Of a stretch of DNA of 64,000 nt, positions 5,048 to 27,713 are shown piece by piece. This DNA is from an uncultured bacterium (GTDB lineage: Bacteria > Bipolaricaulota > Bipolaricaulia > UBA7950 > UBA9294), in NCBI GenBank assembly GCA_903857865.1, contig CAIOGO010000010.1, positions 62,001 to 126,000 of the forward strand, given 5' to 3'. The translations under genes were made by a program, and so were the position numbers. Numbering within the stretch: position 1 is the first letter of the stretch; each line of letters begins with the position of its first letter. The notes below the pieces were generated by a model. That model ran no database searches and had not been told where the DNA came from. It saw only the letters and a list, made by a program, of their open reading frames with translations.

Positions 5048-5050
5048 AAG

Positions 5051-11704: not shown

Positions 11705-11932
11705 ATGCCGAGGAGGCTGTCCTATAAGGTAGTTCTCGAACCATCCAAGGACGGAGGCTACTCCGTCTACGTTCCGTCGTTGCCCGGCTGTGTCAGTGAG
11801 GGCGATTCGTATCAAGAAGCCTTGGACAACATCCGAGAGGCGATTCGAGGGTGGCTCGAGGTCGCCCAGGAGTTCGGCGATGACATCCCGACAAGCGACG
11901 TTCTCACCGAAGCCGTCGAGGTGTCCCTCTAG
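11705..11932 (+). CDS. hicB: HicB-family antitoxin
   Basis: The 75-residue protein has the degenerate RNase H-like HicB fold: an opening strand SYKVVLEPSKDGGYSVYVPS, then LPGCVSEGDSYQEALDNIRE and a helix with WLEVAQEFGDDIP. It neutralises HicA and normally represses its own operon. There is no C-terminal DNA-binding extension, so repression may need another mode or the complex. hicB precedes hicA, the reverse of the more common hicA-hicB order. Only 3 bp separate the hicB stop from the hicA start. The module interrupts the polysaccharide genes. Confidence 0.9.
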   Translation: MPRRLSYKVVLEPSKDGGYSVYVPSLPGCVSEGDSYQEALDNIREAIRGWLEVAQEFGDDIPTSDVLTEAVEVSL

Positions 11933-11935
11933 AAA

Positions 11936-12160
11936 ATGCCGAGACCGCACCCGATCTCCGGCCGCGAGCTCGTCAGGAAGCTGGAGCGGGTTGGCTTTCG
12001 CATCGTACGCCAGAAGGGAAGTCACATGATTCTGCGGCGTGATTTGGAGCCAACATTGACTGTCTGCGTCCCCGACCACAGAGAGCTCAAGAGAGAGACA
12101 CTCCAGAATATCCTTCGCCACGTTCGTCTGACGCGAGACGAGCTGGATAGGCTTGGCTAA
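11936..12160 (+). CDS. hicA: HicA-family mRNA interferase toxin
   Basis: This 74-residue dsRBD-like toxin carries the catalytic-His motif RQKGSHMIL, preceded by ISGRELVRKLERVGF and followed by VPDHRELKRETLQNILRH. HicA cleaves mRNA independently of ribosomes when not bound by HicB. Length and motif order are normal and the His is present, so the toxin looks active. An alternative upstream start of the sugar transferase (TTG 12153) would overlap its 3' end. Confidence 0.9.
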   Translation: MPRPHPISGRELVRKLERVGFRIVRQKGSHMILRRDLEPTLTVCVPDHRELKRETLQNILRHVRLTRDELDRLG

Positions 12161-12200: not shown

Positions 12201-12869
12201 ATGACAGGAGAGATGGCGAAGATAGGATCCACCACGAAAAGGGCACTCGACCTCGTCACGAGTGCGCTGGCGTTCATCCTCCTCTCGCTTCCCTTCACCG
12301 CGATCGCGCTTGCCATCAAGCTCGACGGCCGCGGTCCCGTTTTCTTTCGGCAGATCCGGATCGGGCGTGGTGGCAAGCCGTTTCGAGTGTGGAAGTTCCG
12401 GACAATGAGCGTGATGGAGGTCTCACCCGAGGGGCCAGACTTGCTGAGTCGCGGCGATCCCAGGATCACGCGGGTTGGCCGACTGCTCCGCAACCTCGGA
12501 CTCGACGAGCTTCCGCAGCTCCTGAACGTGCTCGCCGGCGACATGAGTCTCGTCGGCCCACGCCCGACGCTCGCCTACCAGGTGGACCGCTACGACGCAT
12601 TCCAGCGTCGTCGTCTCGAGTTGAGGCCCGGGATCACGAGCCTGGCCGTCGTGTCGGGGCGAAACGCGATCTCGTGGGAGGAACGCATCCGGCTCGACGT
12701 GTGGTACGTCGACCATCGATCACTCGGCCTTGACCTCCGCATCCTGGTCAAGACTCTCTGGAAGGTCCTCGTCACGCGCGAGGGTCTCTACGGACCCGAC
12801 GGCTCGAACGATCCATTTGTCGGCGCAGACGGCACGTCCACGCAGCGTCAAGAGAAGGGGAGCGCGTGA
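12201..12869 (+). CDS. PglC/WcaJ-type initiating sugar transferase
   Basis: This 222-residue bacterial sugar transferase (polyprenyl phosphate phosphoglycosyl transferase, small monotopic type) has an N-terminal re-entrant membrane segment (LVTSALAFILLSLPFTAIAL). It then has RGPVFFRQIRIGRGGKPF, WKFRTM and LDELPQLLNVLAGDMSLVG, with the catalytic Asp-Glu pair in the LDELPQ segment. It loads a sugar-1-phosphate onto undecaprenyl phosphate. Start is uncertain (ATG 12201 or 12213; an upstream TTG at 12153 overlaps hicA). It is a close paralogue of the gene stopped at 22410-23048 and could substitute for it. The stop overlaps the next start. Confidence 0.88.
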   Translation: MTGEMAKIGSTTKRALDLVTSALAFILLSLPFTAIALAIKLDGRGPVFFRQIRIGRGGKPFRVWKFRTMSVMEVSPEGPDLLSRGDPRITRVGRLLRNLGLDELPQLLNVLAGDMSLVGPRPTLAYQVDRYDAFQRRRLELRPGITSLAVVSGRNAISWEERIRLDVWYVDHRSLGLDLRILVKTLWKVLVTREGLYGPDGSNDPFVGADGTSTQRQEKGSA

Positions 12870-14086
12870 GTTCCGAGAGCGCAAGAGAGGGGATCCTCGC
12901 GGGAGTGCGCGTCCTCGACCTGACGCGGGTCCTCAGCGGGCCGTTCTGCACGATGCTTCTCGCCGACCAGGGAGCCGACGTCGTGAAGGTGGAAGCGCCG
13001 GGGCGAGGAGACGACGCGCGACACCTCGGACCGCCCTTCCGAGGCGATGTCAGCGGGTTCTTCGTCAGCGTCAACCGCAACAAGAAGAGCCTGACGCTCA
13101 ACCTGAAGGCGGAACGCGGAGTCGATCTTCTGAAGCAGCTGGTCCGCAGAGCCGACGTCTTCGTCGAGAACTTTCGGCCCGGGGTTGCCAAGCGCCTGGG
13201 CATCGACTACCACGCGCTATCCGCGATTCGGCCGAAGCTCGTCTATGCCTCCGTGTCCGGCTTCGGGCAGACGGGGCCGTATCGTGAGCGTCCGGGCTAC
13301 AACATCATCGTGCAGGCGCTGAGCGGCGTGATGTCGACCAGTGGACCGACGGGCGCCGAGCCGGGCGGCAAGCCGTATCCCATCGGCGTCTCGCTCGGCG
13401 ACATCCCGGCCGGGATGTTTGCCGCGTTCGCGATCACGACGGCGCTATACGCCCGAGAGCGGACGGGACGCGGCCAGTACATCGATGTCAGCATGCTCGA
13501 CTCGCTGGTCGCGATGATGGAGAACCCCATCGTGCGCCACGGGATGACGGGCGCGCCGCCGGAGCCGTTCGGCCGCCGCCATCCGTCGATCACGCCGTAC
13601 GGGATCTTCGACGCGGCCGACGGTCCGATCGCCCTAGCCGTGGGCAACGACCGGCTCTGGCTGCGGTTCTGCGAGGTCCTCGATCGCCCCAATTTGGCGC
13701 AAGACGCGCGCTTCGAGACGAACGCGTCGCGCACGGAGAACGCCGAGGCCCTGTACGCGCTGTTGGGCGATCTCCTCGCGCAGCGACCTGCCTCGTCGTG
13801 GCTCCAGCTCTTGCTCGCAGCCGGCATCCCTGCCGCGCCGGTAAACACGGTCGCGGACCTGTTCGAGGATCCCCAGATCGAGGCGCGCGGCATGCTGCCC
13901 CGCGTCGAGCAGCCGGGCGCGGGCTCGATCCCCGTGTGTGGCACGCCCCTGCGGTTCGCCGGCCAACCAGAGCCCACCTACGGTCCCGCGCCGAGGCTTG
14001 GCGAACACACGCACGAAGTCCTGGCCGGCTGGCTCGGAACAAGCGACGCCGACCTGGATTCTCTCAGGAGAGACGGCGTCATCTAG
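12866..14086 (+). CDS. Class III CoA-transferase (CaiB/BaiF family)
   Basis: This 406-residue protein begins GVRVLDLTRVLSGPFCTMLL and continues ADVVKVEAPGRGDDAR and NRNKKSLTLNLK, the signature order of family III CoA-transferases such as formyl-CoA and crotonobetainyl-CoA transferases. The catalytic Asp is expected in the QYIDVSMLDSL segment. Reaction type: CoA moves between carboxylic acids; the acids are unknown. It overlaps the sugar transferase by 4 bp (GTGA), so it is expressed with glycan genes, which is unusual for this family. The gene ends on a CTAG shared with the convergent PaaK-like gene. Confidence 0.88.
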   Translation: MSSESAREGILAGVRVLDLTRVLSGPFCTMLLADQGADVVKVEAPGRGDDARHLGPPFRGDVSGFFVSVNRNKKSLTLNLKAERGVDLLKQLVRRADVFVENFRPGVAKRLGIDYHALSAIRPKLVYASVSGFGQTGPYRERPGYNIIVQALSGVMSTSGPTGAEPGGKPYPIGVSLGDIPAGMFAAFAITTALYARERTGRGQYIDVSMLDSLVAMMENPIVRHGMTGAPPEPFGRRHPSITPYGIFDAADGPIALAVGNDRLWLRFCEVLDRPNLAQDARFETNASRTENAEALYALLGDLLAQRPASSWLQLLLAAGIPAAPVNTVADLFEDPQIEARGMLPRVEQPGAGSIPVCGTPLRFAGQPEPTYGPAPRLGEHTHEVLAGWLGTSDADLDSLRRDGVI

Positions 14087-15408
14087 GCCGAGGCCGCGCG
14101 ATCGCTCCCGGACGGGTGCCAGGAGCTTCTGACCCGGCTCGTGACTTGACGGAACTTGCCCCCGGACTCGGACTCGAGCGCGTCGACGCGGGTGACCTCG
14201 ACGCGCACCGCGGGATGAAGCGCTCGGATACTGTCGGGCAGCTTGCGCCAGAGGTCGTCCGAGTACTGCGGCCCGGGCACCACGCGGACGACGATGCGGT
14301 CGCACTCCTCTTGAACAATCTGGAACGTCCGGATGGCCTGAGCGAGCACGTCGCCGATCCCGCCAGAGGGAAGCGCGGTATTGACCACGTCGTAGATCAC
14401 GCGCGGGGAGATCTCTCGGCCGTCCGGCATGACGAAGAAGTCCTCGTCGCGACCGCCGACGAGGCGCATCGCGGCGCCGCGAAAGCCGCACGAGCAATGG
14501 TCGGGCTCGACGAGCATCGCCCGGTCACCCATGGCGTAGCGCACGAAGGGCATGGTGGCGTTGAACAGATTGGTGATCACGACCGATCCTTCGACTCCGC
14601 ATCGGGCCGCCCGCCCGTCGGGGCCGACGACCTCGAGGCAGACAGTGGCTGGGTTCGGGTGCATGATCCCGGGCCGGTCCGGGCATTCCCACGCGAGGTT
14701 CCCGGCTTCCTCGCAGTTGTAGTAGTCCACAACGCGGCAGGAAAAGACCCGTTCGAGCAACTCCCGAACGTGAGGGTAGAGCACCTCAGCGTACGAGATG
14801 ACGAGGCAAGGACGGATGGCCGTCACCCCTTCCGCCTCCAGCGCGCGCGCGACTTGCCACAGCATGCTCGGCCGGCCCTCGATGAGGGTGGGTCGTGTGC
14901 GCCGCAGGAGCGCGACGTGCTCCGCCACGGGGAGGGAGCGAAAAAGCCGCACGATGCGGACCGGTCCGACGCGCTGCGTGCTGCGCGTCGCGTGGTCCTT
15001 CCGCTCGGGCCCCACGTCGACCAGTGTGAACGCAGGAGGGATGCGAACGTTGCGTCGGTAAGCGTCGAGGAGAGACAGCGTCCGGAACAGGGCCTCGGTC
15101 CGCGTCATGTAGACACTGACAGGCGTTCCCGTGGTCCCCGTGGTGTGCTTGCACACGAGCGCTCGCACGTCGGCACCGGCACGGAGAAAACCCTGGGTGC
15201 CGGCCGTCAGGAGATCATCGCGGCGGACGACGGGAAGCCCGGGAAGATCGGCGGCGCCGCGAATCGCGTCGATCTGGACTCCGGCCCGCGCGAAGGTCCT
15301 GGCGTAGAAGGGGATGTGGTCGTTGGCGTGGCGCACGATCCAGCGCACGGCGCGATCGACGTCGCCCGCGCGCTTACGCAGCTTGAACCGAACCCATCCG
15401 CCGCTCAC
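14083..15408 (-). CDS. PaaK/CapK-like adenylate-forming enzyme (1)
   Basis: This 441-residue member of the phenylacetate-CoA ligase/coenzyme F390 synthetase/CapK branch of the ANL superfamily starts at GTG 15408 after GGAGGGGG. Visible motifs: P-loop-like HTTGTTGTPVSVYMTR near residue 100, VVDYYNCEEAGNLAWECP, the ATP-site LFNATMPFVRYAMGDRA, CSCG, and a C-terminal ESGGKFRQVTS lysine segment. CapK-type proteins occur in capsule loci and probably activate an acyl group for transfer to a glycan. Two related copies lie at 16273 and 17669. A NeuD-like acetyltransferase lies 40 bp upstream on the same strand. Confidence 0.78.
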   Translation of the reverse strand: MSGGWVRFKLRKRAGDVDRAVRWIVRHANDHIPFYARTFARAGVQIDAIRGAADLPGLPVVRRDDLLTAGTQGFLRAGADVRALVCKHTTGTTGTPVSVYMTRTEALFRTLSLLDAYRRNVRIPPAFTLVDVGPERKDHATRSTQRVGPVRIVRLFRSLPVAEHVALLRRTRPTLIEGRPSMLWQVARALEAEGVTAIRPCLVISYAEVLYPHVRELLERVFSCRVVDYYNCEEAGNLAWECPDRPGIMHPNPATVCLEVVGPDGRAARCGVEGSVVITNLFNATMPFVRYAMGDRAMLVEPDHCSCGFRGAAMRLVGGRDEDFFVMPDGREISPRVIYDVVNTALPSGGIGDVLAQAIRTFQIVQEECDRIVVRVVPGPQYSDDLWRKLPDSIRALHPAVRVEVTRVDALESESGGKFRQVTSRVRSSWHPSGSDRAASA

Positions 15409-15448
15409 GTTGCTCCCCCTCCATCCGTTGGGCCGTTCGGCCGCGCCC

Positions 15449-16105
15449 TCACACCGCATCCGCCGGAACCTCCTCGAGGGTCAGGGGACGCACGGCGCGC
15501 GCCGGGGTCCCATAGCAGAAGGAACGCGCGGGAAGGTCGCCGAGGACCACGGATCCTGCGCCGACCACGCTCCACGCACCGATGCGCGCGAGCGGGACGA
15601 CCTTGGCTCCGATGCCGAGGAACGCACCGCGCTCGATCACGGCGCCTCCGCCGAGGTTCACTCCGGGCGCAATCTGCACGAAATCCTCGACGACGCAGTC
15701 ATGGCCGACCGAGGACAGCGTGTTGAGGATGACGCAACGTCCGACGAGTGCCCCCGCGTTGACGACGCTGCCGTCCACGGCGATGGTCCCTTCGCCGATT
15801 GTCGATCGAGGCGAAATGGCCGTGTGCGGGTGGAGGATGGTCACGAGCCGGCGCCCACGTCGAACGAGATCCTCGGCGATCCGCCGGCGCGCTGCGTTGT
15901 CGCCGACAGCCACGAAAACCAGATCCCATTCGGGCACCGCGTACAACGCTTCCACCGGGCCTAACACCGCGACGCCGTCGACCTCACGAACCTCCGCCCA
16001 GCGGTCGTCGAAGAAGGCAAGGTCGAGATCGTCTCCGCTCCGAACGCGAAGGCAGTCCAGGGCAACGCGTCCATGCCCGCCAGCGCCTACGACTGCAATT
16101 CGCAT
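15449..16105 (-). CDS. NeuD/PglD-type sugar O/N-acetyltransferase
   Basis: The 218-residue protein starts with a Rossmann-like nucleotide-sugar domain (MRIAVVGAGGHGRVALDCLR) followed by a left-handed beta helix of hexapeptide repeats (from ISPRSTIGEGTIAVDGS). The catalytic-type His is in LSSVGHDCVVEDF, then IAPGVNLGGGAVIERGAFLG. The end YGTPARAVRPL is typical. It transfers acetyl from acetyl-CoA to an amino or hydroxyl group of a sugar. A strong GGGAGAAGGGG precedes the ATG. It is paralogous to 24003-24650 but less close to PglD, so a different sugar is likely. Confidence 0.85.
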   Translation of the reverse strand: MRIAVVGAGGHGRVALDCLRVRSGDDLDLAFFDDRWAEVREVDGVAVLGPVEALYAVPEWDLVFVAVGDNAARRRIAEDLVRRGRRLVTILHPHTAISPRSTIGEGTIAVDGSVVNAGALVGRCVILNTLSSVGHDCVVEDFVQIAPGVNLGGGAVIERGAFLGIGAKVVPLARIGAWSVVGAGSVVLGDLPARSFCYGTPARAVRPLTLEEVPADAV

Positions 16106-16272
16106 CGCCCCTTCTCCCTTCGGGCAGCATCCCGCAGACGCCGTCCACTTGTGTCCCCTCCCAGCCTACGTCGTCAGGACTCCGACGGCAATCAATCATC
16201 GAAGCCGCCGCCTGCGGCACACGTCTTTGGCGGTCGCTCGGCAAGAGGCTATGCTCTCCGCGATCCGAAGAG

Positions 16273-17626
16273 ATGACGAAGCCTGCGGTCTTCCGCCTGT
16301 GGAACTCGGCGTGTGTCGTTCTGCGCGGCCGCATCGAGCGGAGGTTGCCGTTTCTACCCACCCCGTGGATTGAGCAGCTTCAGCGGCGTCGCCTGCGAGC
16401 GATCGTCGCCCACGCCTACCGAACCGTGCCCTTCTATCGCGATGCCATGCGGCACGCCGGCTTGAGCCCCGCCGACTTCCGGACCGCCGACGACTTGTCA
16501 CGGCTCCCGTTGATCGACGGCCCCTTCCTGTACCGCCACGCAGATGCCTTCCTGTCGACGGCCTACCGACCGCGGGACAACTACGCTCTGTTCTCGACAG
16601 GTACATCGGCCACGGGACAGAAGCGAATCTCATGGGACACACGGGCGCTGTTCCGCCAGCTCGCCTACGGCGAGCGGGACCGAGTCGTGCTCTACCATCT
16701 GCTCGGAAAGACGTGGGGACAGCGACGCCTGTCCCTCTTCCCCGCGGAGTCCTCCACGGCCGAGGTGACGAGGTTTCATCGCGCCCGGCTGTTCGTGCCC
16801 GCGGCCTTCGCGCGGACCGAGTCGCTGTCGTCCCAAGCCACGTACGAGGAAATCGCTCAGCGAATCAACGAACTTCGGCCAGACATCGTGTACTCATACG
16901 GCTCGATCGCGGAGGCCTTCTTCCGCCATGTAGCCGCCCACGGAATCCACGTGACTCCGCCGCGCGTCTGGGTTTACGGCGGCGACGGCCTCTCCGAGGG
17001 GGGGTCGCGCGCTCATCGAGGAACGCTACGGCTGCTGGGTCCACTCGACCTACCAGGCGGTGGAGGTCGGGCGGATCGGTTTCCAGTGCGAAGAGCGACG
17101 CGGATTCCACCTCAACATCGACCTTTGCCCAGTCCGCATTGTGGACGCGGAAGGCAACGACCTGCCTCCGGGGCAGGTTGGGGAGGTTGTCATCTCAAAC
17201 CTCTACAACCGCGGCATGGTTCTGCTGAACTACCGCATCGGCGACTACGGGGCCATGTCGTTGAGGCCTTGTCCGTGCGGCCGATCGTTGCCCGTCCTCG
17301 AACAGCTGGAGGGAAGATCGAGTTCCACGCTCCGGCTCGCCGACGGCCGCGAGATCCTCGACCACGTTCTGACCCACGCCTACAAGGATGTGCTCAAGGA
17401 GGCGCTGGCATTCCAGATCGTCCACAGCCGACCGGGCGACTTCAGGTGGCGCGTCGTCGCCGCTCTCGACGCGGATCGCAACGCGCTCCAACGCGGCATC
17501 CTCGATGCCGCTCGGCGTGTGCTCGGAGAGGGGAATGTTCTTGCGGTGGAGTTCGTCGACCGCATCGAGCCCGGCCAAGGGGGCAAGCTGGAACGCATCG
17601 TGCGATCGAGTCAGCTAAAGGGCTAG
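16273..17626 (+). pseudogene. PaaK/CapK-like adenylate-forming enzyme (2), frameshifted in a G7 tract
   Basis: The first frame (from ATG 16273) encodes YRTVPFYRDAMRHAGLSP, the FSTGTSATGQKRISW nucleotide loop and VYGGDGLSEG. At the seven Gs at 16998-17004 the frame is lost. With six Gs the text continues RALIEERYGCWVHSTYQAVE and joins the second frame ending at 17626. That frame contains GEVVISNLYNRGMVLLNYRIGDY, CPCGRSLPVL and GQGGKLERIVRSS. Both halves are otherwise undamaged. One extra G therefore separates this from a ~450-residue enzyme; the cause may be recent mutation, slippage-based switching or a sequencing error. It lacks the YNCEE motif of the other two copies (HSTYQAVE instead), so its substrate probably differs. 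Confidence 0.8.
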
Positions 17627-17668
17627 CTCTCGGCTCCGCCTCCGTGGTCTCTCATCACGGCCCGTTCC

Positions 17669-18982
17669 CTAGGACGGGCTCCCTGCTGCCCGACCGGGAA
17701 TAGCTTGGATCACTTTCTTGAACTTGCCCGACGGCTCGTAGGAGAGTGCGTCGACCAGATTGACCGTACACCGCAGTCCCGGATCTAGCCCGCGCAGTGC
17801 GGGGCCGAGGATCTCGTCGAACGCGAGGCCATGATCGACGTCAGGAACGATGCGGATCGTCAGATGGTCGATCGCGTCTTGCACGACCTGGAACTTCCAG
17901 AAGAAGCGCTCGACGCCTCGTTCTTGAGCAAGTGGGTCAAACGCGCGAGTCACGGCCGTCGCGACGAGACGCGGCGAGACCCTGCGGCCGCTCGGTAAGT
18001 GAACGTAGTCGTCGTCGCGCCCGCTCAGAACGGCCATCCGTGGACTGCGACTCCCGCAGGCGCAGCGGCCTTTCGAGGGCGGATAAAGGATCCCGCGGTC
18101 GTGCAGCGCATAGCGGACGAACGGCATGGTGCGGTTATAGAGATTCGTTACGAGGACTTGGCCCTCGGCGCCGGAAGGGAGAGGATTCCCCTCCCGGTCG
18201 ACGATCTCGACAAGGCAGGCGTCGGTATGGACGTGAAGGATCGTCGGATCTCGCGGGCACTCCCAGGCCACGTTTCCGATCTCCTCGCAGTTGTAGAAGT
18301 CAGCCACGCGGCTGCCGAACGCACCTTCGATGGTCCGCCGGGTTGTCTCATGTAGGAGCTCGCCTCGGGCGGCGACGAGCCGCGGAGACAGCGCCGCTGA
18401 GAAGTCACGAAGTCCCTCAGCGAGGATCTCGAGCGCCGTAGGATAGCCCGAGACGACGTGGGGCCTGTGCTGGGCAAGGAGGTCGATCTGGCGTTCCACG
18501 GGAAGCGCGATGGATATCCTGACGATCGAGGCGGCCGTTCGTCGCTTTATGTCGACGCCGGACGTGCCTTGAACCCACGAGCCGACGTCGACAACCCGAA
18601 GAGGAAGCGGAAGAGGGCCATAGCGTCGCCACGCGGAGAGGAGCAGCGCCCTGCGGTAGATTGCCTCGCCCCGGCTCATGTAGATGTCGAGGGGAAAACC
18701 TGTCGAGCCGCTCGTCGCGGCCCGCACGCAGTGGGGAATGCTCGCGTGAGCATGGATCCGGTCCCGGATCGGGGCGTCGCGGAAGAGTTTCTCCCTCTCA
18801 ACGATCGGTAGGCGAGGGAGGTCGGCGACGGACCGAATCTCGTTGGGTTGCACTCGCCGCTCATCGAGTAGACGGCGGTAGACCGGGATGTTCCGATAGC
18901 AGGAGCGGACGAGGAAGCCGAGAACACGGTCCACATCACGGGAACTCTTGCCCCGCTTGAACCTCAAGAAGCGATCTGCCAT
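17669..18982 (-). CDS. PaaK/CapK-like adenylate-forming enzyme (3)
   Basis: This 437-residue protein starts at ATG 18982 (GAGAGGGG just upstream); the longer open frame has no support. Motifs parallel copy 1: RAATSGSTGFPLDIYMSR, DFYNCEEIGNVAWECPRDP, LYNRTMPFVRYALHDRG, CACGSRSPRMAVLSGRDDD and a C-terminal PSGKFKKVIQ containing the adenylation-domain lysine. It resembles copy 1 more than copy 2 and probably activates a related acid. It is divergently arranged with the Mur-ligase-like gene, and the two share a ~100-bp promoter region. Confidence 0.78.
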   Translation of the reverse strand: MADRFLRFKRGKSSRDVDRVLGFLVRSCYRNIPVYRRLLDERRVQPNEIRSVADLPRLPIVEREKLFRDAPIRDRIHAHASIPHCVRAATSGSTGFPLDIYMSRGEAIYRRALLLSAWRRYGPLPLPLRVVDVGSWVQGTSGVDIKRRTAASIVRISIALPVERQIDLLAQHRPHVVSGYPTALEILAEGLRDFSAALSPRLVAARGELLHETTRRTIEGAFGSRVADFYNCEEIGNVAWECPRDPTILHVHTDACLVEIVDREGNPLPSGAEGQVLVTNLYNRTMPFVRYALHDRGILYPPSKGRCACGSRSPRMAVLSGRDDDYVHLPSGRRVSPRLVATAVTRAFDPLAQERGVERFFWKFQVVQDAIDHLTIRIVPDVDHGLAFDEILGPALRGLDPGLRCTVNLVDALSYEPSGKFKKVIQAIPGRAAGSPS

Positions 18983-19070
18983 CCCCTCTCTCACGCGCCT
19001 ATCTTCCACGTCCGGCCGGGGCCTGACAAAGCAGCGTGGACGATCGGCTTCGGCTCGCCTCCACATTGTG

Positions 19071-19082
19071 TAGGATCGAGAC
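19071..19082 (+). promoter_or_regulatory. -10 box of a leaderless start for the Mur-ligase-like gene
   Basis: TAGGAT lies at -12 to -7 of the ATG at 19083, the position expected when transcription begins at the A of the start codon. No SD precedes the ATG. A -35 box is not obvious. Confidence 0.4.
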
Positions 19083-20420
19083 ATGCCTGCCAGGCTGATC
19101 GAGATCGTCGGCCGTTTGAGAACCGCGCCGGGCCGCAAGAGGCTCCTCCTCGGCGCGTTCTTTCGGACGTGGCGAGTCTTGTTCCCGATCGCGAGGGCGT
19201 ACCGGCGCACGTTGATCCGCCGCACCCGCGTCGTCGCCGTGGTGGGTTCCTTCGGAAAGACAACGGCCACGCGGGCCGTCTACGCCGCTCTGGGCCTGCC
19301 GATACGGTTTCCCAGCGGATGGAACTCCGGCGGCTTCCTCGCGGTCGGCCTGCTTCGCATCCGCCCCGGTGCGCGCCACGCCGCGCTCGAGGTGGGCATC
19401 TCCCGCAAGGGAATGATGGCTCGCTGCGCCCGGTTGATCGGGCCCGACATCGCCGTCGTCACGTCGATCGGGAGCGAACATCACCCATCGCTTGGAACGC
19501 TCGAAGAGACGAGAAACGAGAAGGTCGAGATGGTTCGCGCGCTGCCGTTATCCGGCCTCGCCGTGCTCAACGGTGACGATCCGAATGTCGTCTGGATGAG
19601 AAACGCCACGCTCGCCCGCGTCATCACCTTCGGCCTTGGCGACGCGTGCGACGTGCGGGCAAGCTCGGTCGTCCTCGATATCCGGACGGGAATGCGATTT
19701 ACGCTGCACGCCAACGGCACGACGTACGAGATGACCAGCCGTCTGATCGGGCCTCACATGGTGCACTCGATCCTCGCGGCGGTCGCCGTGGTCGTCGGCG
19801 AGGGCTTGCCCCTTGAAGACGCGCTCCCACGGCTCCGGAGCGTCACCGCGGCTCCGGAGCGGCTCGAGGTGGTGCCCGCCGAGGGCGGGGCGTTCCTGTT
19901 GGTCGACACGTACAAGTCCGTGCTGGAAACGATCGTGACGAGCTTCGAGACTCTCGCTGCACTTCAGGCGGATCGGAAGATCGTCGTCCTGGGGGACATC
20001 GAGGAGCCGAAGGGAAGCCAGGGGCTTCTCTACAAAGACCTCGGCGCGCGCCTCGCCTGCATCGCGACGCGGGTCGTGTTCGTCGGCGGCGAAAAGGCCT
20101 ACAAGAGCCTGGCGAGTGGAGCTCGTGGCACTGGAATGCCTAAGGAGAGGGTCGCCTATGCGGGCAGGAGCTCGCGGCGCGCCGCCGAGTTGGTGCGGGA
20201 GGATCTCCGCGCGGGCGACATCGTTCTGATCAAGGGGCGATCGATGCAGCAACTGGAGCGAGTGGCCTTCCATCTCACGGGCCGCCCGATGCCTTGCGAC
20301 ATCGGGGCCTGCGGGCTGAAGTCAGGGTGCGCCGAGTGTCCCCTCATCGTACGCGCGGTGCGCAGGGCGCAAGCGAAAGCGCGAAGCAGCGCGGGCCGAC
20401 TCCCGGCGGCTGACGGGTGA
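19083..20420 (+). CDS. MurF-like ATP-dependent ligase with a four-cysteine C-terminal tail
   Basis: This 445-residue protein has a Mur-ligase central domain. P-loop VVGSFGKTTATRA is near residues 53-65, then GWNSGGFLAVGLL, HAALEVGISRKGMM, an SIGSEHHPSLGTLEETRNEK segment (the MurF-like acceptor/Mg site) and AVLNGDDPNV. A C-terminal domain with LLVDTYKSVLETIVTSF and VVLGDIEEPKG follows. It lacks the N-terminal UDP-MurNAc-recognition domain and instead opens with an Arg-rich hydrophobic stretch. The end carries Cys405, 410, 416 and 419 (CDIGACGLKSGCAEC), a possible metal site not usual in MurF. Likely reaction: ATP-driven amide bond formation between an amino acid or amine and a carboxylate on a glycan or carrier. 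Confidence 0.75.
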   Translation: MPARLIEIVGRLRTAPGRKRLLLGAFFRTWRVLFPIARAYRRTLIRRTRVVAVVGSFGKTTATRAVYAALGLPIRFPSGWNSGGFLAVGLLRIRPGARHAALEVGISRKGMMARCARLIGPDIAVVTSIGSEHHPSLGTLEETRNEKVEMVRALPLSGLAVLNGDDPNVVWMRNATLARVITFGLGDACDVRASSVVLDIRTGMRFTLHANGTTYEMTSRLIGPHMVHSILAAVAVVVGEGLPLEDALPRLRSVTAAPERLEVVPAEGGAFLLVDTYKSVLETIVTSFETLAALQADRKIVVLGDIEEPKGSQGLLYKDLGARLACIATRVVFVGGEKAYKSLASGARGTGMPKERVAYAGRSSRRAAELVREDLRAGDIVLIKGRSMQQLERVAFHLTGRPMPCDIGACGLKSGCAECPLIVRAVRRAQAKARSSAGRLPAADG

Positions 20421-20424
20421 GACC

Positions 20425-22314
20425 ATGTGCGGAATAGCGGGAATCGCGCTCAAGGAGGGGTCCAGGCCGGTTGACGCCGCGCTCCTCCAGGCGATGACGG
20501 ACCGGCTGCGCCACCGCGGCCCCGATGCCGAGGGGACGTTCTCCGCTCCAGGCATCGGCCTCGGCTCGCGGCGGTTGAGCATCATCGACCTCGAAACCGG
20601 CGATCAGCCGATCGCGAACGAGGATGGATCCATCGTCGTCGTCTGCAACGGGGAGATCTACAACTACGTCGAGCTGCGCGCCGAGCTCTTGGCGGCGGGG
20701 CACGAGTTCCGCACACAGTCGGACACGGAGGTCATCGTGCACCTCTATGAGGAGCACGGCGTCGGCTGCGTCGAGCGTTTGCGCGGCATGTTCGCCCTCG
20801 CCCTGTGGGACTCGAGCCGGCGGCGCTTGTTCTTGGCACGGGATCGGTTGGGCATCAAGCCGCTCTACTATGCGGAGACGGCGCAGGCCCTCTACTTCGC
20901 CTCCGAGCAGAAGGCCCTCTTGGAAGCGGACGATGTGCCGCGCGAGATCTCGCCTCGCGGTGTGAACGATCTCTTGACCCTCGGGTTCGTCGCCGCGCCC
21001 GCCACGATGTTCGCGGGTATCCGCCAGTTGATGCCAGGCACGTGGCTCCGGTACGAGGGCGGCTCAGCATCCATCCACCGATACTGGGATGCGAGCTTTC
21101 CCCCGCGAGACGAGCGGGCCCCGCGGGTCCGCGAGGACACCTGGGTGGAGGCGCTCGGAGAGAAGCTGGAAGAGGTCGTGCGCCTGCATCTTCGAAGCGA
21201 CGTGGTGGTGGGAGCGTGGCTGAGCGGTGGACTCGACTCGAGCGCTATCGTCAGCCTCATGTTGCGCCAGCTCGGCCGACCCGTGCACGTCGCGTCGCTC
21301 AGCTTCGACAGCCCCGGAATCGACGAGATTCACACGCAGCGCACGCTGCTCGATTTTCCAGAGTACGACCTGATCTCGCGCGTCCGCGTGTGCACTGCGA
21401 AGGACTTCGCCCGACTCCCGGAGGCGTTGTGGTTCTCGGAGGATCCCAGCACCTCGGGCATTGAGATCCTGCGTCTACTGGCCGCCGAGGAGAGCGCGCA
21501 AGACGTCAAGGTCATTCTGACCGGTGAAGGAGCCGACGAGATCTTCGGCGGGTACCCGTGGTTCCAGTTCGACAAGCTCCTACGCCCGCTGGCTAAGCTC
21601 CCGCAGCCGATGAAACGCGCCATGATGCTCGGATCGTTCCTTCCGAACCGCTACCCGCGCATCGGCGGCATGTTCCTCGCCACGCCGGAAATGAACGCGG
21701 AGCGCTATCGCGTGACCGTCGGATGGGGGCGCCCCACGGTGACCCGCCGACTCCTCTCGGCGGACCTGGCGTCGCGCGCCGCGGACGTCGAAGGCTGCGC
21801 GTGGGAACTCGATCTCCCCAAGGGATTCTCGCGCTGGCATCCTTTCGCGCAACTGCAGTACTACGAGCTCAACGTCCGCCTCCCGTCGTTCGTCAACCAC
21901 ACGCTCGACCGGTGCTCGATGGCGCGGTCGGTCGAGGCGCGCGTTCCGTTCCTCGACCACGAACTGGTGGAGTTCGCCGCACATATTCCTCCCTCGCTCA
22001 AGATGAAGGGCTTGCGCGAGAAGCACGTTCTCCGGGGGGCCGTCGCCGACTGCCTTCCTCACGAGATCGCGAGCCGCAAGAAGCGCGGGCTGCAAGCTCC
22101 CACGACCGCGTGGTTACGCCAACCTTTGCCCGAGTTCGCGGCCGACCTGCTTTCCGAGTCCTCGCTGCGACGCAAGGGGTACTTCGACGCCGCCGGCGTG
22201 CGTAGGCTTCTGGCCGAGCATCAGTCGAGCCGAGGCACGTGGACGTACGAGCTGTTCGCGGCGCTTTCCCTGCAGTTGTGGGATGAGATCTTTCTCCAGG
22301 GGAATCGGCCGTAG
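20425..22314 (+). CDS. asnB: Asparagine synthase (glutamine-hydrolysing)-type amidotransferase
   Basis: This is full length at 629 residues. The class II glutaminase domain begins MCGIAGIALKEG with the nucleophile Cys2, and RLRHRGPDAEG, YNGEIYNY-type and RDRLGIKPLYY segments follow. The synthetase domain has the PP-loop LSGGLDSSAIVS at ~residue 266 and LTGEGADEIFGGYPW. It transfers glutamine-derived ammonia to an acyl-adenylate. Paralogues in polysaccharide loci amidate uronic acids or sugar-linked carboxylates rather than aspartate. It starts 4 bp after the Mur-ligase-like gene, suggesting that the ligase and amidase act on the same product. Confidence 0.88.
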   Translation: MCGIAGIALKEGSRPVDAALLQAMTDRLRHRGPDAEGTFSAPGIGLGSRRLSIIDLETGDQPIANEDGSIVVVCNGEIYNYVELRAELLAAGHEFRTQSDTEVIVHLYEEHGVGCVERLRGMFALALWDSSRRRLFLARDRLGIKPLYYAETAQALYFASEQKALLEADDVPREISPRGVNDLLTLGFVAAPATMFAGIRQLMPGTWLRYEGGSASIHRYWDASFPPRDERAPRVREDTWVEALGEKLEEVVRLHLRSDVVVGAWLSGGLDSSAIVSLMLRQLGRPVHVASLSFDSPGIDEIHTQRTLLDFPEYDLISRVRVCTAKDFARLPEALWFSEDPSTSGIEILRLLAAEESAQDVKVILTGEGADEIFGGYPWFQFDKLLRPLAKLPQPMKRAMMLGSFLPNRYPRIGGMFLATPEMNAERYRVTVGWGRPTVTRRLLSADLASRAADVEGCAWELDLPKGFSRWHPFAQLQYYELNVRLPSFVNHTLDRCSMARSVEARVPFLDHELVEFAAHIPPSLKMKGLREKHVLRGAVADCLPHEIASRKKRGLQAPTTAWLRQPLPEFAADLLSESSLRRKGYFDAAGVRRLLAEHQSSRGTWTYELFAALSLQLWDEIFLQGNRP

Positions 22315-22409
22315 GTGGCGGCGCAAACGGCAAGAACCTTCTGCGGATCGGCTATCCTTGAGTGCCAAAGGCAAGGACCCTGGGAGGCTTCGAGACGGGA
22401 GGAGAAGGC

Positions 22410-23048
22410 GTGACGACCATCGGGCGAGGGACGAAGAGAGCCTTAGACATCTTGGCGAGCGGCGTGGCACTCCTCGTTCTCGCGTGCCCCTTCGCGGCCA
22501 TCGCCGTCGCCATCAAGCTTGACAACCGGGGTCCCGTCTTCTTTCGCTAGGAACGCGCCGGAAAGGGCGGTCGGCCCTTCCGCGTGTGGAAGTTCCGCAC
22601 GATGGTCGTCGATGCCATCTCCAAGGGCTTTGGAGTCACTGTGGCCGAGGGCGACGAGCGGATCACGCGCGTGGGGAGGATTCTCCGAACCTGGGGGCTC
22701 GACGAACTGCCTCAAGTGCTGAACGTCCTCGCGGGGGAGATGAGTTTCGTCGGGCCGCGGCCGACGCTCTCGTACCAGGTTGAGCACTACGACGAGTTCC
22801 AGCGACGACGGCTCAATGTTCACCCGGGAATCACGAGCCTTGCCGTGGTGTCCGGCCGCAACGCGCTCCCCTGGCGGGAACGAATCGAACTCGACGTCTG
22901 GTACATCGATCACTGGTCACTCAAATCGGATCTCAAGATCCTCTTCCGTACCCTTTGGTGCGTGCTCGTGACGCGCGAGGGTCTGTACGGAAAGGACGGG
23001 GTGAACGACTCGTTCGTCGATCCGCCGGGCGGCACTGCGCGCACGTAG
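22410..23048 (+). pseudogene. PglC-type sugar transferase with an internal TAG
   Basis: The GTG at 22410 follows GGAGGAGAAGG. The product reads GRGTKRALDILASGVALLVL and continues to GPVFFR, then a TAG at 22548-22550. The same frame continues ERAGKGGRPFRVWKFRTM, LDELPQVLNVLAGEMSFVG and VREGLYGKDG to 23048. The intact paralogue at 12201 has Gln at the stop position (FFRQIRIGRGG), so a single C-to-T change of CAG explains it. No other damage is visible, so the lesion is recent, suppressible or a sequence error. Unless read through, only the N-terminal membrane segment is made. Confidence 0.85.
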
Positions 23049-23277
23049 TGACACGTAGTGAACGTCGCACGCAACGCGTGACGCTACAGTGACCCTGTCA
23101 TTCTTTGCGCCTTCTGCACTCTTGGCGTGAGACGGCCCGTGCCTCACGCGAAGCGCGCCAAGATCGCCAAGAGAGCCAGAAACTCATTGCCTCTCAGCGC
23201 GGCCGCGATCCCGCGGTGCGGCGGCACAACCCGCCCTGCGCGCTCGCTCGACTCTGCGATTCCACTACAATGGCGCC

Positions 23278-23604
23278 ATGGGCAAGACCACGGCGAGAAG
23301 AGATCCGAGGACCATGGTGCTCGATGAGGTGCTTCACATGCTTCGAGCAGAACTGCCCAACCTGGAGCAGAGCCACGGTGTCCGGTCCCTGGGTGTTTTC
23401 GGCTCCATCGTGCGGGGCGAGCAACGCTCGCGAAGCGACGTTGACATTCTCGTGGTTTTCGAGCGCACCCCGACGTTCTTCGAGTTCATCGAGCTGGAGG
23501 ACCGGCTGGCGGAACTGCTGGGAGCGAAAGTCGACCTAGTCATGCGAAGCGCCCTGAAGCCCCGTATTGGGGATCGGATCCTCGCGGAGGTCGTCAACGT
23601 ATGA
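23278..23604 (+). CDS. MNT-domain nucleotidyltransferase antitoxin (MntA-like)
   Basis: This 108-residue minimal nucleotidyltransferase contains GVFGSIVRGEQRSRSDVDIL, which matches the GSX10DXD motif exactly. In characterised HepT/MntA pairs the antitoxin AMPylates a tyrosine of the HEPN toxin. The partner lies immediately downstream. The ATG at 23278 has TACAAT at -12 to -7 and no SD, so translation is probably leaderless. The module sits between the broken sugar transferase and the PglD/E/F genes. Confidence 0.88.
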   Translation: MGKTTARRDPRTMVLDEVLHMLRAELPNLEQSHGVRSLGVFGSIVRGEQRSRSDVDILVVFERTPTFFEFIELEDRLAELLGAKVDLVMRSALKPRIGDRILAEVVNV

Positions 23605-23950
23605 AGCCCCATCCGAGCGAACGTCCGAGGACTACTTGAGGGACATCCTAGAATACGCGGAGAAGGCCGAGCTGTTCCTCGCGTCGGTTCCCAGTGCCGA
23701 GGAACTGGCCGGAGACGAGAAGACCCTTCTCGCCGTGATTCGGGCTCTAGAGGTGATCGGCGAAGCGTCGAAGCGCGTCGCTCCCGCCCTTCGGAAGGCG
23801 CGGCCGGAGATCCCGTGGCGTGGAATGGCGGGGATGCGAGACAAGGTCATCCATGGGTACTTCGGTGTAGACGCCACTCTTGTATGGCGAACGGTAAAAG
23901 AGGATTTGCCCCGCGTCCGTGAAGCGGTGCGGTCGCTCCTCCCTCAGTGA
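23567..23950 (+). CDS. HEPN (DUF86) RNase toxin, HepT-like
   Basis: The helical DUF86 protein runs from TSEDYLRDILEYAEKAELFL through VIGEASKRVAPALRKARPEI to MRDKVIHGYFGVDATLVW. It carries RDKVIHGY, an exact RX4HXY motif: Arg and His are the RNase site, and Tyr is the residue AMPylated by MntA partners. The start is unclear. The ATG at 23601 overlaps the antitoxin stop (ATGA) in the usual way but is in another frame and stops after 12 codons. The HepT frame itself offers only a TTG at 23567. A one-base slip in the CCCC after ATGAAG would join the ATG to the toxin frame. Confidence 0.82.
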   Translation: MGIGSSRRSSTYEAPSERTSEDYLRDILEYAEKAELFLASVPSAEELAGDEKTLLAVIRALEVIGEASKRVAPALRKARPEIPWRGMAGMRDKVIHGYFGVDATLVWRTVKEDLPRVREAVRSLLPQ

Positions 23951-24002: not shown

Positions 24003-24650
24003 GTGACAGAGCCTGAAGGTGTTCTGATCTACGGAGCCGGCGGCCACGGGCTCGTGGTGCTGGACGCGGCGTTGCGGCAGTCGGGCCTGCGCGTGGTCGG
24101 CATCGTTGACGACGATCTCGCCCGACGCGGCGAGCGGATCCTCGGCGTCGAGGTCCTTGGCGACGGCTCGATCCTGCCGGACCCTCGATTCCATTCGTGT
24201 CGCGTTGTGGTCGCGATCGGCGATGCAGCCGCTCGCGAGAGAGCGGCCGGTCACGTCGAGGCGGCCGGCTTGGGGTTCGCCGCAATTGTGCACCCCACGG
24301 CCTTTCTGGCGCACGGCGTCTCGGTGGGCGACGGAGCGATGATCCTGCCGATGGCCGTCGTCCACACCGCCGCTTCGATCGGCCGCCACGCCATCGTCAA
24401 CACCGGCGCCATCGTGGAGCATGAGTGCCACGTCGGGGACTTCAGCCACATTGCGCCGGGCGCCTGTCTCGCTGGAAATGTGACCGTAGGAAGGAGCGCT
24501 CATGTGGGGATCGGAGCTTCCGTCGCGCCGGGGGTCCGGATCGGCGACCATGCGGTGGTCGCCGCCGGAGCCGCAGTGATCAACGACGTCCCGGCGGGCT
24601 CGGTCGTCGGCGGAGTTCCGGCACGTCCGCTGCGGAAGGAGTCAGTGTGA
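24003..24650 (+). CDS. pglD: PglD-like UDP-4-amino-sugar N-acetyltransferase
   Basis: The 215-residue protein starts at GTG 24003 after GGGAGTAGG. The N-domain begins VLIYGAGGHGLVVLDAALRQ and the hexapeptide beta-helix contains HPTAFLAHGVSVGDGAMILP. The catalytic-base His is in AIVEHECHVGDFSHIAPGA, and the end VVGGVPARPLRK is typical of PglD. In the bacillosamine pathway PglD acetylates UDP-4-amino-4,6-dideoxy-GlcNAc. It overlaps the aminotransferase by 4 bp and precedes the PglF-like dehydratase, completing the three-enzyme set. The symbol is assigned by family and context. Confidence 0.78.
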   Translation: MTEPEGVLIYGAGGHGLVVLDAALRQSGLRVVGIVDDDLARRGERILGVEVLGDGSILPDPRFHSCRVVVAIGDAAARERAAGHVEAAGLGFAAIVHPTAFLAHGVSVGDGAMILPMAVVHTAASIGRHAIVNTGAIVEHECHVGDFSHIAPGACLAGNVTVGRSAHVGIGASVAPGVRIGDHAVVAAGAAVINDVPAGSVVGGVPARPLRKESV

Positions 24651-25798
24651 GCGACGTAAGAGAACGGTCCATCCCTCTCGCACGGCACGACGTCCGGCCG
24701 GAAGATGTCGCAGCCGTCGTCGATGTGTTGAAGAGCGACCGCTTGTCGCTCGGGCCTAGGACACAGGCGTTCGAGCGCGCGCTTGCTGAGACTATCGGCG
24801 TCCAGCACGCGGTTGCCGTGAACAGCGGCACGAGCGCCCTGCACCTTCTCGTCCGCGCGTTTGAGATCGGACCGGGCGACGAGGTCATCACGACGCCGTT
24901 TAGCTTCATCGCGTCGACGAACTGCATTCTGTTCGAACGCGCGACGCCCGTCTTCGTCGACATCGAACCGGAGACCCTGTGCATCGATCCGGCGCTCGTC
25001 GAACGCGCGATCACGCCACGCACGAAAGCCATCCTTGCCGTCGATGTGTTCGGGCATCCGGCGCAGCTCCCCGCCCTGGAGAAGATCGCCAGGGATCACG
25101 ACTTGCGGTTCATCGAAGACTCCGCGGAGTCTCTCGGCTCGTCGCTCGACGGACGGAAATGCGGGTCGTTTGGTGACGCAGGAATCTTCGGCTTCTACCC
25201 CAATAAACAGATCACCACTGGCGAGGGCGGCGCAATCGTCACGGACGACGCTCGCATCGCCGAGCTGTGCCGCAGCATGGCCGACCAGGGAAGGGGCGCC
25301 GAGGAAGCCTGGCTGCACCACGTGCGTCTCGGCTATAACTACCGTCTCGACGAGATGTCGGCAGCACTCGGGTTGTCGCAGCTCGCTCGCCTGCGCGAGA
25401 TCGTCGCGGCCCGGGCGCGCGTCGCCGACTTGTATCTCGGCGCGCTCTCCGATGCGGAGGAGATCGTGCTGCCAAAGGTCGCACCCGGTGTGGGCATGAG
25501 TTGGTTCGTGTTCGTTGTCAGGCTTGCGGATCGTTTCTCGCGCGCGGACCGCGATCGCGTCTTGGCGGCGCTAGCGCGGGCCGGAATCGGCTGCCGCAAC
25601 TACTTCGAGCCCATTCATCTCCAGCCGTTCATCCGCAAGGCACTCGGAACGGGACCGGGCCAGTTCCCGGTCGCCGAACACGTCGGAGATCGAACGATCG
25701 CGCTCCCGTTCTACCCACAGATGACGCAGCAAGAAGTGAGCCGAGTCGCCGACGCGCTGCGCTCGTCGCTGGGAAGAGGGGCACGGTGTGACCGGTAA
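24647..25798 (+). CDS. pglE: DegT/DnrJ/EryC1-family sugar aminotransferase (PglE-like)
   Basis: This 383-residue PLP enzyme has VNSGTSALHLLVRAFEIGPG, FSFIASTNCILFERATPVFV, FIEDSAESLGSSL and GFYPNKQITTGEGG, where Lys187 is the Schiff-base lysine. The C-terminal YNYRLDEMSAALGLSQL is typical. It should transaminate the UDP-4-keto sugar made by the downstream dehydratase. Start: GTG 24647 overlapping the pglD stop, with AAGGAG upstream. PglE versus other DegT enzymes is inferred from its flanking genes. Confidence 0.85.
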   Translation: MSDVRERSIPLARHDVRPEDVAAVVDVLKSDRLSLGPRTQAFERALAETIGVQHAVAVNSGTSALHLLVRAFEIGPGDEVITTPFSFIASTNCILFERATPVFVDIEPETLCIDPALVERAITPRTKAILAVDVFGHPAQLPALEKIARDHDLRFIEDSAESLGSSLDGRKCGSFGDAGIFGFYPNKQITTGEGGAIVTDDARIAELCRSMADQGRGAEEAWLHHVRLGYNYRLDEMSAALGLSQLARLREIVAARARVADLYLGALSDAEEIVLPKVAPGVGMSWFVFVVRLADRFSRADRDRVLAALARAGIGCRNYFEPIHLQPFIRKALGTGPGQFPVAEHVGDRTIALPFYPQMTQQEVSRVADALRSSLGRGARCDR

Positions 25799-27713
25799 GC
25801 AAGGACGAGTCATGTGGAACCCGCCGTTGTGGGCGCGCCATGCAGCCTTGGCCGGGGCCGATCTGCTCCTCATCGCGGTCGCGCTCTTCCTCGCGTTCCT
25901 TCTGCGCTTCGAGGGTGCGATCCCGGCTCCCATGGTAGACGTCCTGTGGCGGACGCTCGTCCTATCGATCGGGCTCAAGATCCCCGTATTCGTCGTCTTC
26001 CAAATGTACCGCTTCAGTTGGCGGCACGTCGGCGTCTCGGAGCTACTCAAGACTTCTCTCGCATGTGCCGTGGGCTCGTCGCTGGTTGCTACGGCCGTGC
26101 TGCTCTTGAGACACGAAAGCGCGTGGGGCGCCGCGCCGCGATCCGCACTCGGGATTGACTTCGCACTGACGCTATTGCTCGTGACGTGGGGTCGGATCAC
26201 TCCTCGCCTTGTGGCGCATCTCGCAGGTCGTGGGAAGCTAGGCAGACAGGCGACACGTGCGATCATCGTCGGCGCTGGGGACGCTGGAGCGCAGCTTGCC
26301 CGCGCGTTGCAGCAGGATCCTGCGTTGACGTACCACGTCGTCGGATTCGTCGACGATGACCGACGAAAGCGGGGCATGCTGCTCCAAGGAGTGAGGGTCC
26401 TTGGCTCGCGCAAGCAGCTCGGCGCGATCGTCAAGAGCCGCTCTGTTAGGGCAGTTCTGATTGCGATGCCCTCGGCGCAGCCGGGAGTGATCCAAGAGAC
26501 GGTCACCTTGGCTCGCACGGCGGCGGTGCCCGATGTAAAGATCCTCCCGTTCCTGAGTGAGCTCTACGCCGGCCGCGTTTCGGCGGCCGACCTCCGCACG
26601 CTCGAGCCGGCCGACGTGCTTCACCGAGAAGAGGTGCGTGTCGATGCGGCTCCGATCCGTGCGTTTCTCGAGGGGGAATGTGTGTTGGTGACTGGCGCTG
26701 CCGGGTCGATCGGGTCGGAGCTGTGCCGTCAGATCTTGCGCTTCGGAGTCAAGCGCCTTGTGGCCCTCGACTTCGACGAGACGGGGTTGTTCTACCTTGA
26801 GTCCGAGCTGCGTCATCGGTTCCCCGAACAAGAGGTCGACGTTGTCATCGACGATGTGCGCGACGCGGCCGAAATCGACGCGCTCGTCGAGCGCGTTCAT
26901 CCCGACGTCGTCTACCACGCCGCCGCCTACAAACACGTGCCGATGATGGAGCGCTTCCCGACCCAAGCGATCAAGACGAACGTCGAGGGGACTCGAAACG
27001 TGCTCGAATCCTCTTGCCGAGCCGGGAGCAAGGCGTTCGTGCTCATTTCCACGGACAAGGCGGTTAACCCCACCTCGGTGATGGGCGCCTCGAAGCGGGT
27101 CGCCGAGATCCTGGTGCGTTCGTGTCAGTCCACATCGACACGGTGCTTGGCGGTCCGGTTCGGCAACGTGCTCGGCAGCCGCGGAAGCGTGTTGAGGACG
27201 TTCCAGGGTCAGGTCGAGCGGCGCCAGGCGGTGACGGTGACGCACCCGGACATGGTGCGCTACTTCATGCTCACGTCCGAGGCCGTTCAGCTCGTGCTTC
27301 AGGCGAGTGCCGTCGGCGCGGGAGGCCAGGTCTTCGTACTCGACATGGGTAGACCCGTCAAGATCTTGGACCTGGCACGCGATGTGATCCGCTTCTACGG
27401 CCTCGAACCGGACGTCGACATTCCCATCCTCTACACGGGCGTCCGCCCGGGTGAGAAGCTGTTCGAGGAGTTGCTGACGGCGGAAGAAGGAACCGAGAGG
27501 ACCGAGTACGAGCGACTGCTCGTCGCCCGCTTGCAGGAACCTCCTGCCGGATGGCGCGACCAATTGGATACGCTCGTGCGCGCCGCACACGCCGAGAACG
27601 AAGGGCAGGTTCGTGCAGCGCTCGGCGATCTGGTCCCGACGCACAACCTGAATGGCCCCCGGTCGGGCCCGCCCGACGCCGCGTTCGACACGTCGACGTC
27701 GCATCCACAATGA
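25788..27713 (+). CDS. pglF: Membrane-anchored nucleotide-sugar 4,6-dehydratase (PglF/CapD-like)
   Basis: The 641-residue protein has four N-terminal hydrophobic segments (AGADLLLIAVALFLAFLLRF onward). A CoA-binding-like Rossmann unit (IIVGAGDAGAQLARAL, ~residue 160) is followed by the SDR domain with VTGAAGSIGSELCRQ at ~300 and ISTDKAVNPTSVMGASKR at ~420. The usual catalytic Tyr is replaced by Met, as in the PglF/FlaA1 class. Such enzymes convert UDP-GlcNAc to the 4-keto-6-deoxy sugar, the first step to bacillosamine. The start (GTG 25788) overlaps pglE; an ATG at 25812 is an alternative. Confidence 0.88.
   Translation: MTGKQGRVMWNPPLWARHAALAGADLLLIAVALFLAFLLRFEGAIPAPMVDVLWRTLVLSIGLKIPVFVVFQMYRFSWRHVGVSELLKTSLACAVGSSLVATAVLLLRHESAWGAAPRSALGIDFALTLLLVTWGRITPRLVAHLAGRGKLGRQATRAIIVGAGDAGAQLARALQQDPALTYHVVGFVDDDRRKRGMLLQGVRVLGSRKQLGAIVKSRSVRAVLIAMPSAQPGVIQETVTLARTAAVPDVKILPFLSELYAGRVSAADLRTLEPADVLHREEVRVDAAPIRAFLEGECVLVTGAAGSIGSELCRQILRFGVKRLVALDFDETGLFYLESELRHRFPEQEVDVVIDDVRDAAEIDALVERVHPDVVYHAAAYKHVPMMERFPTQAIKTNVEGTRNVLESSCRAGSKAFVLISTDKAVNPTSVMGASKRVAEILVRSCQSTSTRCLAVRFGNVLGSRGSVLRTFQGQVERRQAVTVTHPDMVRYFMLTSEAVQLVLQASAVGAGGQVFVLDMGRPVKILDLARDVIRFYGLEPDVDIPILYTGVRPGEKLFEELLTAEEGTERTEYERLLVARLQEPPAGWRDQLDTLVRAAHAENEGQVRAALGDLVPTHNLNGPRSGPPDAAFDTSTSHPQ

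Follow-up and report, generated by a model that had tools for sequence, protein, structure and literature searches.

We analysed a stretch of 64,000 nucleotides from an uncultured member of the phylum Bipolaricaulota (bases 62001-126000 of contig C10; hereafter the window), focusing on a block of seven genes. These encode a class III CoA-transferase, three PaaK/CapK-like adenylate-forming enzymes (PaaK1 to PaaK3), the NeuD-type acyltransferase NeuD1, a Mur ligase with a four-cysteine tail, which we call MurF*, and the amidotransferase AsnB (Table 1). The assembly (G000) comprises 2.24 Mb in 22 contigs and is 91% complete; the G+C content of the window is 64%. Profile searches place the block in a surface-glycan island (~3.9 to 27.7 kb of the window), where it is preceded by a WecA-like GT4 transferase, Wzy, a GT2 enzyme, a Wzx-like flippase, an epimerase and a GT4 enzyme, and followed by NeuD2, a PglE-like aminotransferase and a PglF-like dehydratase. 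This confirms the glycan setting proposed in an earlier note on this DNA. The bacillosamine (PglC/D/E/F) set of dehydratase, aminotransferase, NeuD-type acetyltransferase and PglC is present at 22398-27713; PglC2 is interrupted there, and PglC1 lies close by. The DNA immediately before the window (L028) also encodes, judged by eye, two NeuB-like proteins, a fusion of NeuA/KdsC-like type, a PIG-L-like protein and GNAT-like proteins.

The CoA-transferase, NeuD, MurF-like and AsnB families named in the earlier note were all recovered by profile search, as were the PaaK-like enzymes PaaK1 and PaaK3; the third, PaaK2, is frameshifted at a stretch of seven G. Bac_transf genes do flank the block on both sides as proposed, the right-hand one (PglC2) carrying an in-frame TAG at 22548-22550. 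Recoding was ruled out as the cause of this stop, as TAG is the most frequent terminator (35 of 59 genes). The 4-bp overlaps described for the block reduce to a single tandem one, between PglC1 and the CoA-transferase (GTGA); CoA-transferase and PaaK1 overlap convergently, and a gap of 4 bp separates MurF* from AsnB. The strand order of the seven genes is + - - + - + +, and this alternation rules out a single operon.

A distinct clade of Cys-tailed Mur ligases

MurF* belongs to the Mur ligase superfamily: its central ATPase and C-terminal ligase domains exceed the respective cut-offs (PF08245, 80.3 bits; PF02875, 38.3 bits), and the motif GS-x-GKTT is invariant. Both domains, the Walker A motif GSFGKTT, the E-K region and N-x-D-D are shared with MurF (TIGR01143; PDB 4qf5, 3zl8). 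However, MurF* reaches 168.1 bits against the curated TIGR01143 cut-off of 288.6, is shorter by ~55 N-terminal residues and has glycan-locus neighbours. The full N-terminal UDP domain is missing, profile position 36 aligning to residue 92 of PaMurF (4cvk), and in an AlphaFold2 model a short, partly low-confidence helical segment takes the place of the UDP-binding domain before the Walker A strand. The best match of this model (predicted local distance difference test, pLDDT, 82; five sequences) is MurF (Z 31.9, 3.1 Å, 373 residues, 23% identity).

The C-terminal tail had been described as CX4CX5CX2C, which is exact (residues 405, 410, 416 and 419). All four cysteines are invariant in an alignment of seven sequences, and the pattern C-x4-C-x5..7-C-x2-C was found in 11/11 clade sequences versus 0/46 MurFs. 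A quick tree without bootstrap, for which the tail columns had been stripped beforehand, split the eleven Cys-tailed sequences from 46 tail-less MurF-like sequences of the own and other phyla, taken as housekeeping MurF, by a branch with a Shimodaira-Hasegawa-like approximate likelihood ratio of 100. Judged from its sequence, MurF* is a clade outside housekeeping MurF with a branch of its own. Like cyanophycin synthetase, FPGS, MurT and the pseudomurein ligases, it is a Mur-type ligase that probably acts outside the classical MurC-F steps; no match to its tail was seen in these enzymes, and the zinc site of MurT lies elsewhere in the protein. We infer that the tail could bind a metal (zinc), and do so with reserve because it was modelled at low confidence.

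The clade is sparse. MurF* occurs in 3/100 genomes of its own phylum. For the phyla to which the Planctomycetaceae and Prosthecobacter hits belong, the genomes sampled gave at least three of 392 (one divergent) and at least one of 387, respectively, which are lower bounds as the initial scan there scored few candidates. The Planctomycetaceae protein shares 48% identity with MurF*. Plasmid searches recognised a single Cys-tailed Mur ligase, on a Gemmobacter plasmid. The divergent member (G244, L069 10261-11250) has thiazole/tetrapyrrole-type genes in its vicinity, along with a protein weakly resembling PaaK (4885-6354).

The earlier note had suggested a search for co-occurrence of MurF-like and PaaK-like genes, and its proposal withstood this test: the two lie close together at independent loci in several phyla. 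A PaaK-like gene is located 0.4-3.6 kb from MurF* in four other loci from Planctomycetota, Verrucomicrobiota and the own family (G100, G101, G102 and G017), whose genomes hold 1, 5, 1 and 6 PaaK-like genes, respectively. Under uniform placement, the per-genome chance of such proximity is 0.001-0.007, with a product of ~1e-10 that is too small as a true chance as glycan genes cluster. The PaaK profile was built partly from PaaKs of these same loci; the MurF* hit list was not. Within the own phylum, ten of 100 genomes hold PaaK, and these include every one of the three with MurF* (hypergeometric 7e-4, uncorrected for kinship). MurF* adjoins AsnB in three genomes (G000, G061 and G100), and these AsnBs score >1140 bits versus ≤465 for all others, in a profile that was built from the same three. 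The AsnB of the window has the start MCGIAG (Cys2 nucleophile), the SGGxDS loop and the synthetase domain PF00733, and exceeds the TIGR01536 cut-off of 267 with 463 bits. Genes for BKACE and GNAT proteins lie 3' of MurF* in the Planctomycetaceae and Prosthecobacter loci alike, a second hint of acyl-CoA chemistry, and most MurF* loci are set among glycosyltransferase, Wzy, pyruvyl-transferase or bacillosamine genes. The recurrence of these gene pairs in distant genomes exceeds chance, and the locus is a variant of glycan-decoration loci, with the Cys-tailed Mur ligases as its most novel element.

PaaK-like enzymes and their NeuD1 partner

With the PaaK/CapK-like adenylate-forming CoA ligases (PDB 4r1l, 2y4o, 6siw), the PaaKs of the block share the sequence family and the catalytic residues, namely the C-terminal lysine (K420), C242, H250 and the CxC motif (C307, C309), which are invariant in eight sequences. 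Unlike them, they stay below every NCBIfam PaaK cut-off; for the phenylacetate-CoA ligase profile TIGR02155 (cut-off 646), PaaK1 reaches 57 and PaaK3 82 bits. The three enzymes fall into separate groups of the tree and are old paralogues, by which a local triplication was ruled out. The two halves of PaaK2 match one intact relative (L026:13217-14557) at 41% and 42%. Apart from the frame change at the seven G, the gene looks undamaged, pointing to either an assembly error or a phase-variable switch. Orthologues of PaaK1 were found in G031 and G061, those of PaaK3 in G031, G021, G015 and G027, and PaaK2 lies beside a PaaK3-like gene in 4/4 genomes that hold it, in G017 beside a sister of the PaaK3 group.

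NeuD1 scores 202.7 bits in TIGR03570, above the curated cut-off of 160.8. Its orthologues (55-64% identity, next best 45%; G000, G031, G021, G015, G027 and G017) occur in exactly the 6/100 genomes with PaaK3-type genes, which corresponds to 4/39 for both when counted by genus (1e-5). NeuD1 adjoins a PaaK in G000, G031, G015 and G027 and is found at a contig end in G021; in G017, it lies near PaaK2 and MurF*, with a PaaK within ~4 kb. The cassette PglC-PaaK3-NeuD1-PaaK1-PaaK-PglC of G031, in which the PaaK-NeuD unit occurs without MurF*, mirrors the layout studied here. In the three plasmid-borne PaaK loci inspected, no Mur ligase is annotated next to PaaK. In G061 (L078 3157-5784), we observed a natural PaaK-PaaK fusion of 875 amino acids between PglC and PglE, accompanied by ATP-grasp and PLP enzymes.

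Decoration of surface sugars as a candidate function

But, what could these enzymes do in a glycan island? Amino-acid and acyl amides are frequent on bacterial surface sugars, and to our knowledge the bond-forming enzyme is unassigned for many of them. We propose that the block supplies two linked sugar-decorating modules within a bacillosamine/nonulosonate island, a reading to which we give an even chance. In module A, PaaK1 and PaaK3, plus PaaK2 when intact, would convert free carboxylic acids with ATP via acyl-AMP to acyl-CoA, the donor with which NeuD1 would acylate an amino group on a nucleotide sugar. The probable target is the 4-amino group of the PglF/PglE bacillosamine-type sugar or of a related diamino sugar, which PglC1 might then put on undecaprenyl phosphate. 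In module B, MurF* would form an ATP-driven amide between a carboxylate and an amine, using a substrate other than UDP-MurNAc-peptide, for example the carboxyl group of a uronic or nonulosonic acid plus an amino acid, or an acyl group plus an amino sugar, while AsnB would take nitrogen from glutamine to turn a carboxylate into a carboxamide. Further acyl-CoA may come from a dicarboxylic acid through the CoA-transferase. We infer each of these substrates, the order of the steps and a joint action of both modules on one glycan; acyl groups might, as the earlier note suggested, end amidated on the glycan.

Precedents for such decoration exist. The qhbC and lgaHI modules of A. baumannii relate to an N4-(3-hydroxybutanoyl) bacillosamine-type sugar and to N7-(3-hydroxybutanoyl) legionaminic acid (PMC9676051), so that non-acetyl N-acyl groups are precedented. 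As in these and other NeuD/PglD/VioB systems, NeuD1 passes TIGR03570 and has bacillosamine genes nearby; unlike them, it is paired with dedicated PaaK-like ligases. In the Wbp/Vim pathway, a uronamide linking sugar involves the AsnB-type WbpS and the Ser/Gly transferase VimA (PMC7468200). There, an AsnB-type amidotransferase stands beside enzymes by which a sugar receives an amino acid or acyl group, as proposed for the block, which differs by its MurF-like ligase and PaaKs.

Taken singly, the enzymes are all of known kinds. No description of the Cys-tailed Mur clade or of this gene combination was found in the literature searched, and for glycan loci with MurF, PaaK and AsnB nothing direct. 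MurF* could represent a new class of non-peptidoglycan Mur ligases with a metal-binding Cys tail, forming amide bonds on surface-glycan precursors together with AsnB and PaaK-like acid-activating enzymes, and sparsely spread over Planctomycetota, Verrucomicrobiota, Alphaproteobacteria and its own phylum. We put this forward tentatively, as somewhat short of an even chance. Since it accompanies AsnB and PaaK-like enzymes at glycan loci in several phyla, the clade is a concrete candidate for an amide-bond-forming enzyme; if this is true, a gene annotated as 'MurF' away from the division cluster can encode a glycan enzyme.

Several observations weigh against a shared decoration block. PaaK1 and NeuD1 lie on the strand opposite to PglC1 and AsnB, the assembled sequences of PaaK2 and PglC2 are disrupted, and a UDP-sugar 6-dehydrogenase as source of uronic acid for AsnB was not identified among the annotated genes. 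No counterpart of the CoA-transferase was found beside MurF* in other MurF* loci. In G015 and G027, the NeuD1-PaaK pair is located 3' of an aldehyde:ferredoxin oxidoreductase and two ThiS-like proteins, without glycan genes; the visible part of the locus in G021, of the same genus, is alike, with NeuD1 at the contig end. In the same three genomes, PaaK3 lies beside a VIT/VWA-type protein of 712-714 amino acids, again without glycan genes (L122, L124 and L125), accompanied by a divergent PaaK2 in L122 and L125. In this genus, the target of the NeuD1-PaaK unit may not be a surface glycan, or may be a precursor that also feeds one. The contig with the MurF* locus G017:C21 carries no PaaK, and the divergent G244 has no strict PaaK near MurF*. 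With the mixed orientations, the lone CoA-transferase and PaaK-NeuD units that occur without MurF*, even away from glycan genes, the earlier claim that all seven genes form one pathway is not supported in that form.

These neighbourhoods also feed an alternative in which PaaK-NeuD1 and the CoA-transferase work in a small-molecule pathway or in acyl-CoA metabolism at large, the glycan island being merely their location. Besides the oxidoreductase and ThiS-like partners in genomes of the same family, it draws on the PaaK2-PaaK3 pairs by VIT/VWA and, by eye, CoA-biosynthesis genes, and on CoA-transferase homologues (~43%) that are widespread in family f4. However, PaaKs reside inside glycan loci in G031, G061 and G021:C159, NeuD1 exceeds a curated NeuD/PglB/VioB sugar acetyltransferase cut-off and the CoA-transferase start overlaps PglC1, and we consider this explanation unlikely. 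Somewhat less probable still is a mosaic insertion hotspot, in which mobile elements gathered unrelated, partly decayed cargo without a common pathway. Toxin-antitoxin genes (HicBA, MNT/HepT, VapC-type) and a transposase-like HTH gene do flank or interrupt the island, strands alternate, two genes are broken and the distribution of MurF* is sparse, but the same gene pairs return in distant genomes far above uniform-placement chance.

The Wbp/Vim precedent leads to a further possibility, namely that the product of the block is a uronamide linking sugar, modified with an amino acid or acyl group, through which proteins are anchored in an (exo)sortase-type manner. AsnB is closest to the XrtA/PEP-CTERM amidotransferases (TIGR03108), a family that PMC7468200 names, but remains below its cut-off (515 versus 816.9 bits). 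A protein in two MurF* loci has a weak model core resembling FemX (pLDDT 44; a hint only), and exosortases are encoded in G100, G101, G102 and G244, but G017, G061 and G157 have no exosortase match and G000 has a partial one on another contig. Since exosortases are no constant companion of MurF* loci, the strict Vim analogy is weakened. Among the annotated genes of the window, no VimA-like transferase, VimE or uronic-acid (Wbp) gene was recognised, a genome-wide search not having been made, and we regard this reading as improbable. If MurF* were a surplus MurF of peptidoglycan synthesis with no link to glycans, its fold and active-site motifs would be explained, but the separate MurF-like gene on contig C3, the clade of its own, the Cys tail and the missing full N-terminal UDP domain make this very improbable indeed.

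Coordinates and further features

The CoA-transferase is established at the level of its family, PF02515; against the succinate-glutarate CoA-transferase profile NF052585, it reaches 357 bits (cut-off 750), and no match at E≤1e-80 was obtained among the 32 other genomes searched of its own family (f1).

Table 1 Features of the block, its flanks and a related gene row. Positions refer to the window unless a locus (L) is given.
Feature	Position	Strand	Basis or remark
PglC1, phosphoglycosyl transferase (Bac_transf)	12213..12869	+	PF02397 213 bits; open reading frame may start at 12153
CoAT3, class III (CaiB/BaiF) CoA-transferase	12866..14086	+	PF02515 456 bits; start overlaps PglC1 stop
PaaK1, CapK/PaaK-like adenylate-forming enzyme	14083..15459	-	NF045666/PaaK-type profiles below cut-offs; 11-bp overlap with NeuD1
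NeuD1, left-handed beta-helix sugar N-acyl/acetyltransferase	15449..16105	-	TIGR03570 202.7 bits
PaaK2, PaaK-like, frameshifted in assembly	16273..17626	+	two-frame match to intact relative
Seven-G run at PaaK2 frame shift	16998..17004	.	sequence
PaaK3, CapK/PaaK-like adenylate-forming enzyme	17669..18982	-	profiles, conserved active-site residues
MurF*, Mur ligase with four-Cys C-terminal tail (tail ~20295-20339)	19083..20420	+	PF08245, PF02875
AsnB, glutamine-dependent amidotransferase	20425..22314	+	PF00733, GATase_7, TIGR01536
PglC2, second phosphoglycosyl transferase, TAG-interrupted	22398..23048	+	Bac_transf profile
NeuD2, PglD-like acetyltransferase	24003..24650	+	TIGR03570 213 bits
PglE-like aminotransferase (DegT family)	24647..25798	+	PF01041 408 bits; PseC/LegC-type profiles below cut-offs
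PglF-like membrane-anchored UDP-GlcNAc 4,6-dehydratase	25812..27713	+	PF02719 355 bits and N-terminal PF13727
Aldehyde:ferredoxin oxidoreductase, two ThiS-like, NeuD1 orthologue in a row	L143 8454-12838; L144 8073-12451; L145 204-3209		next in row: a PaaK (L143, L144) or the contig end (L145)

Three toxin-antitoxin-type pairs were found by Pfam within the glycan island: HicB/HicA (11705-12160), an MNT nucleotidyltransferase with HepT (23314-23950) and a PIN-domain (VapC-type) gene preceded by a small one (28115-28791). Further downstream, the window holds three genes of the glutamate-dehydrogenase family inside 8 kb (33725-41051) and a Y1/IS200-type transposase-like protein (60527-61390), of which an 80% identical copy is present in G021 (L122 9678-10562).

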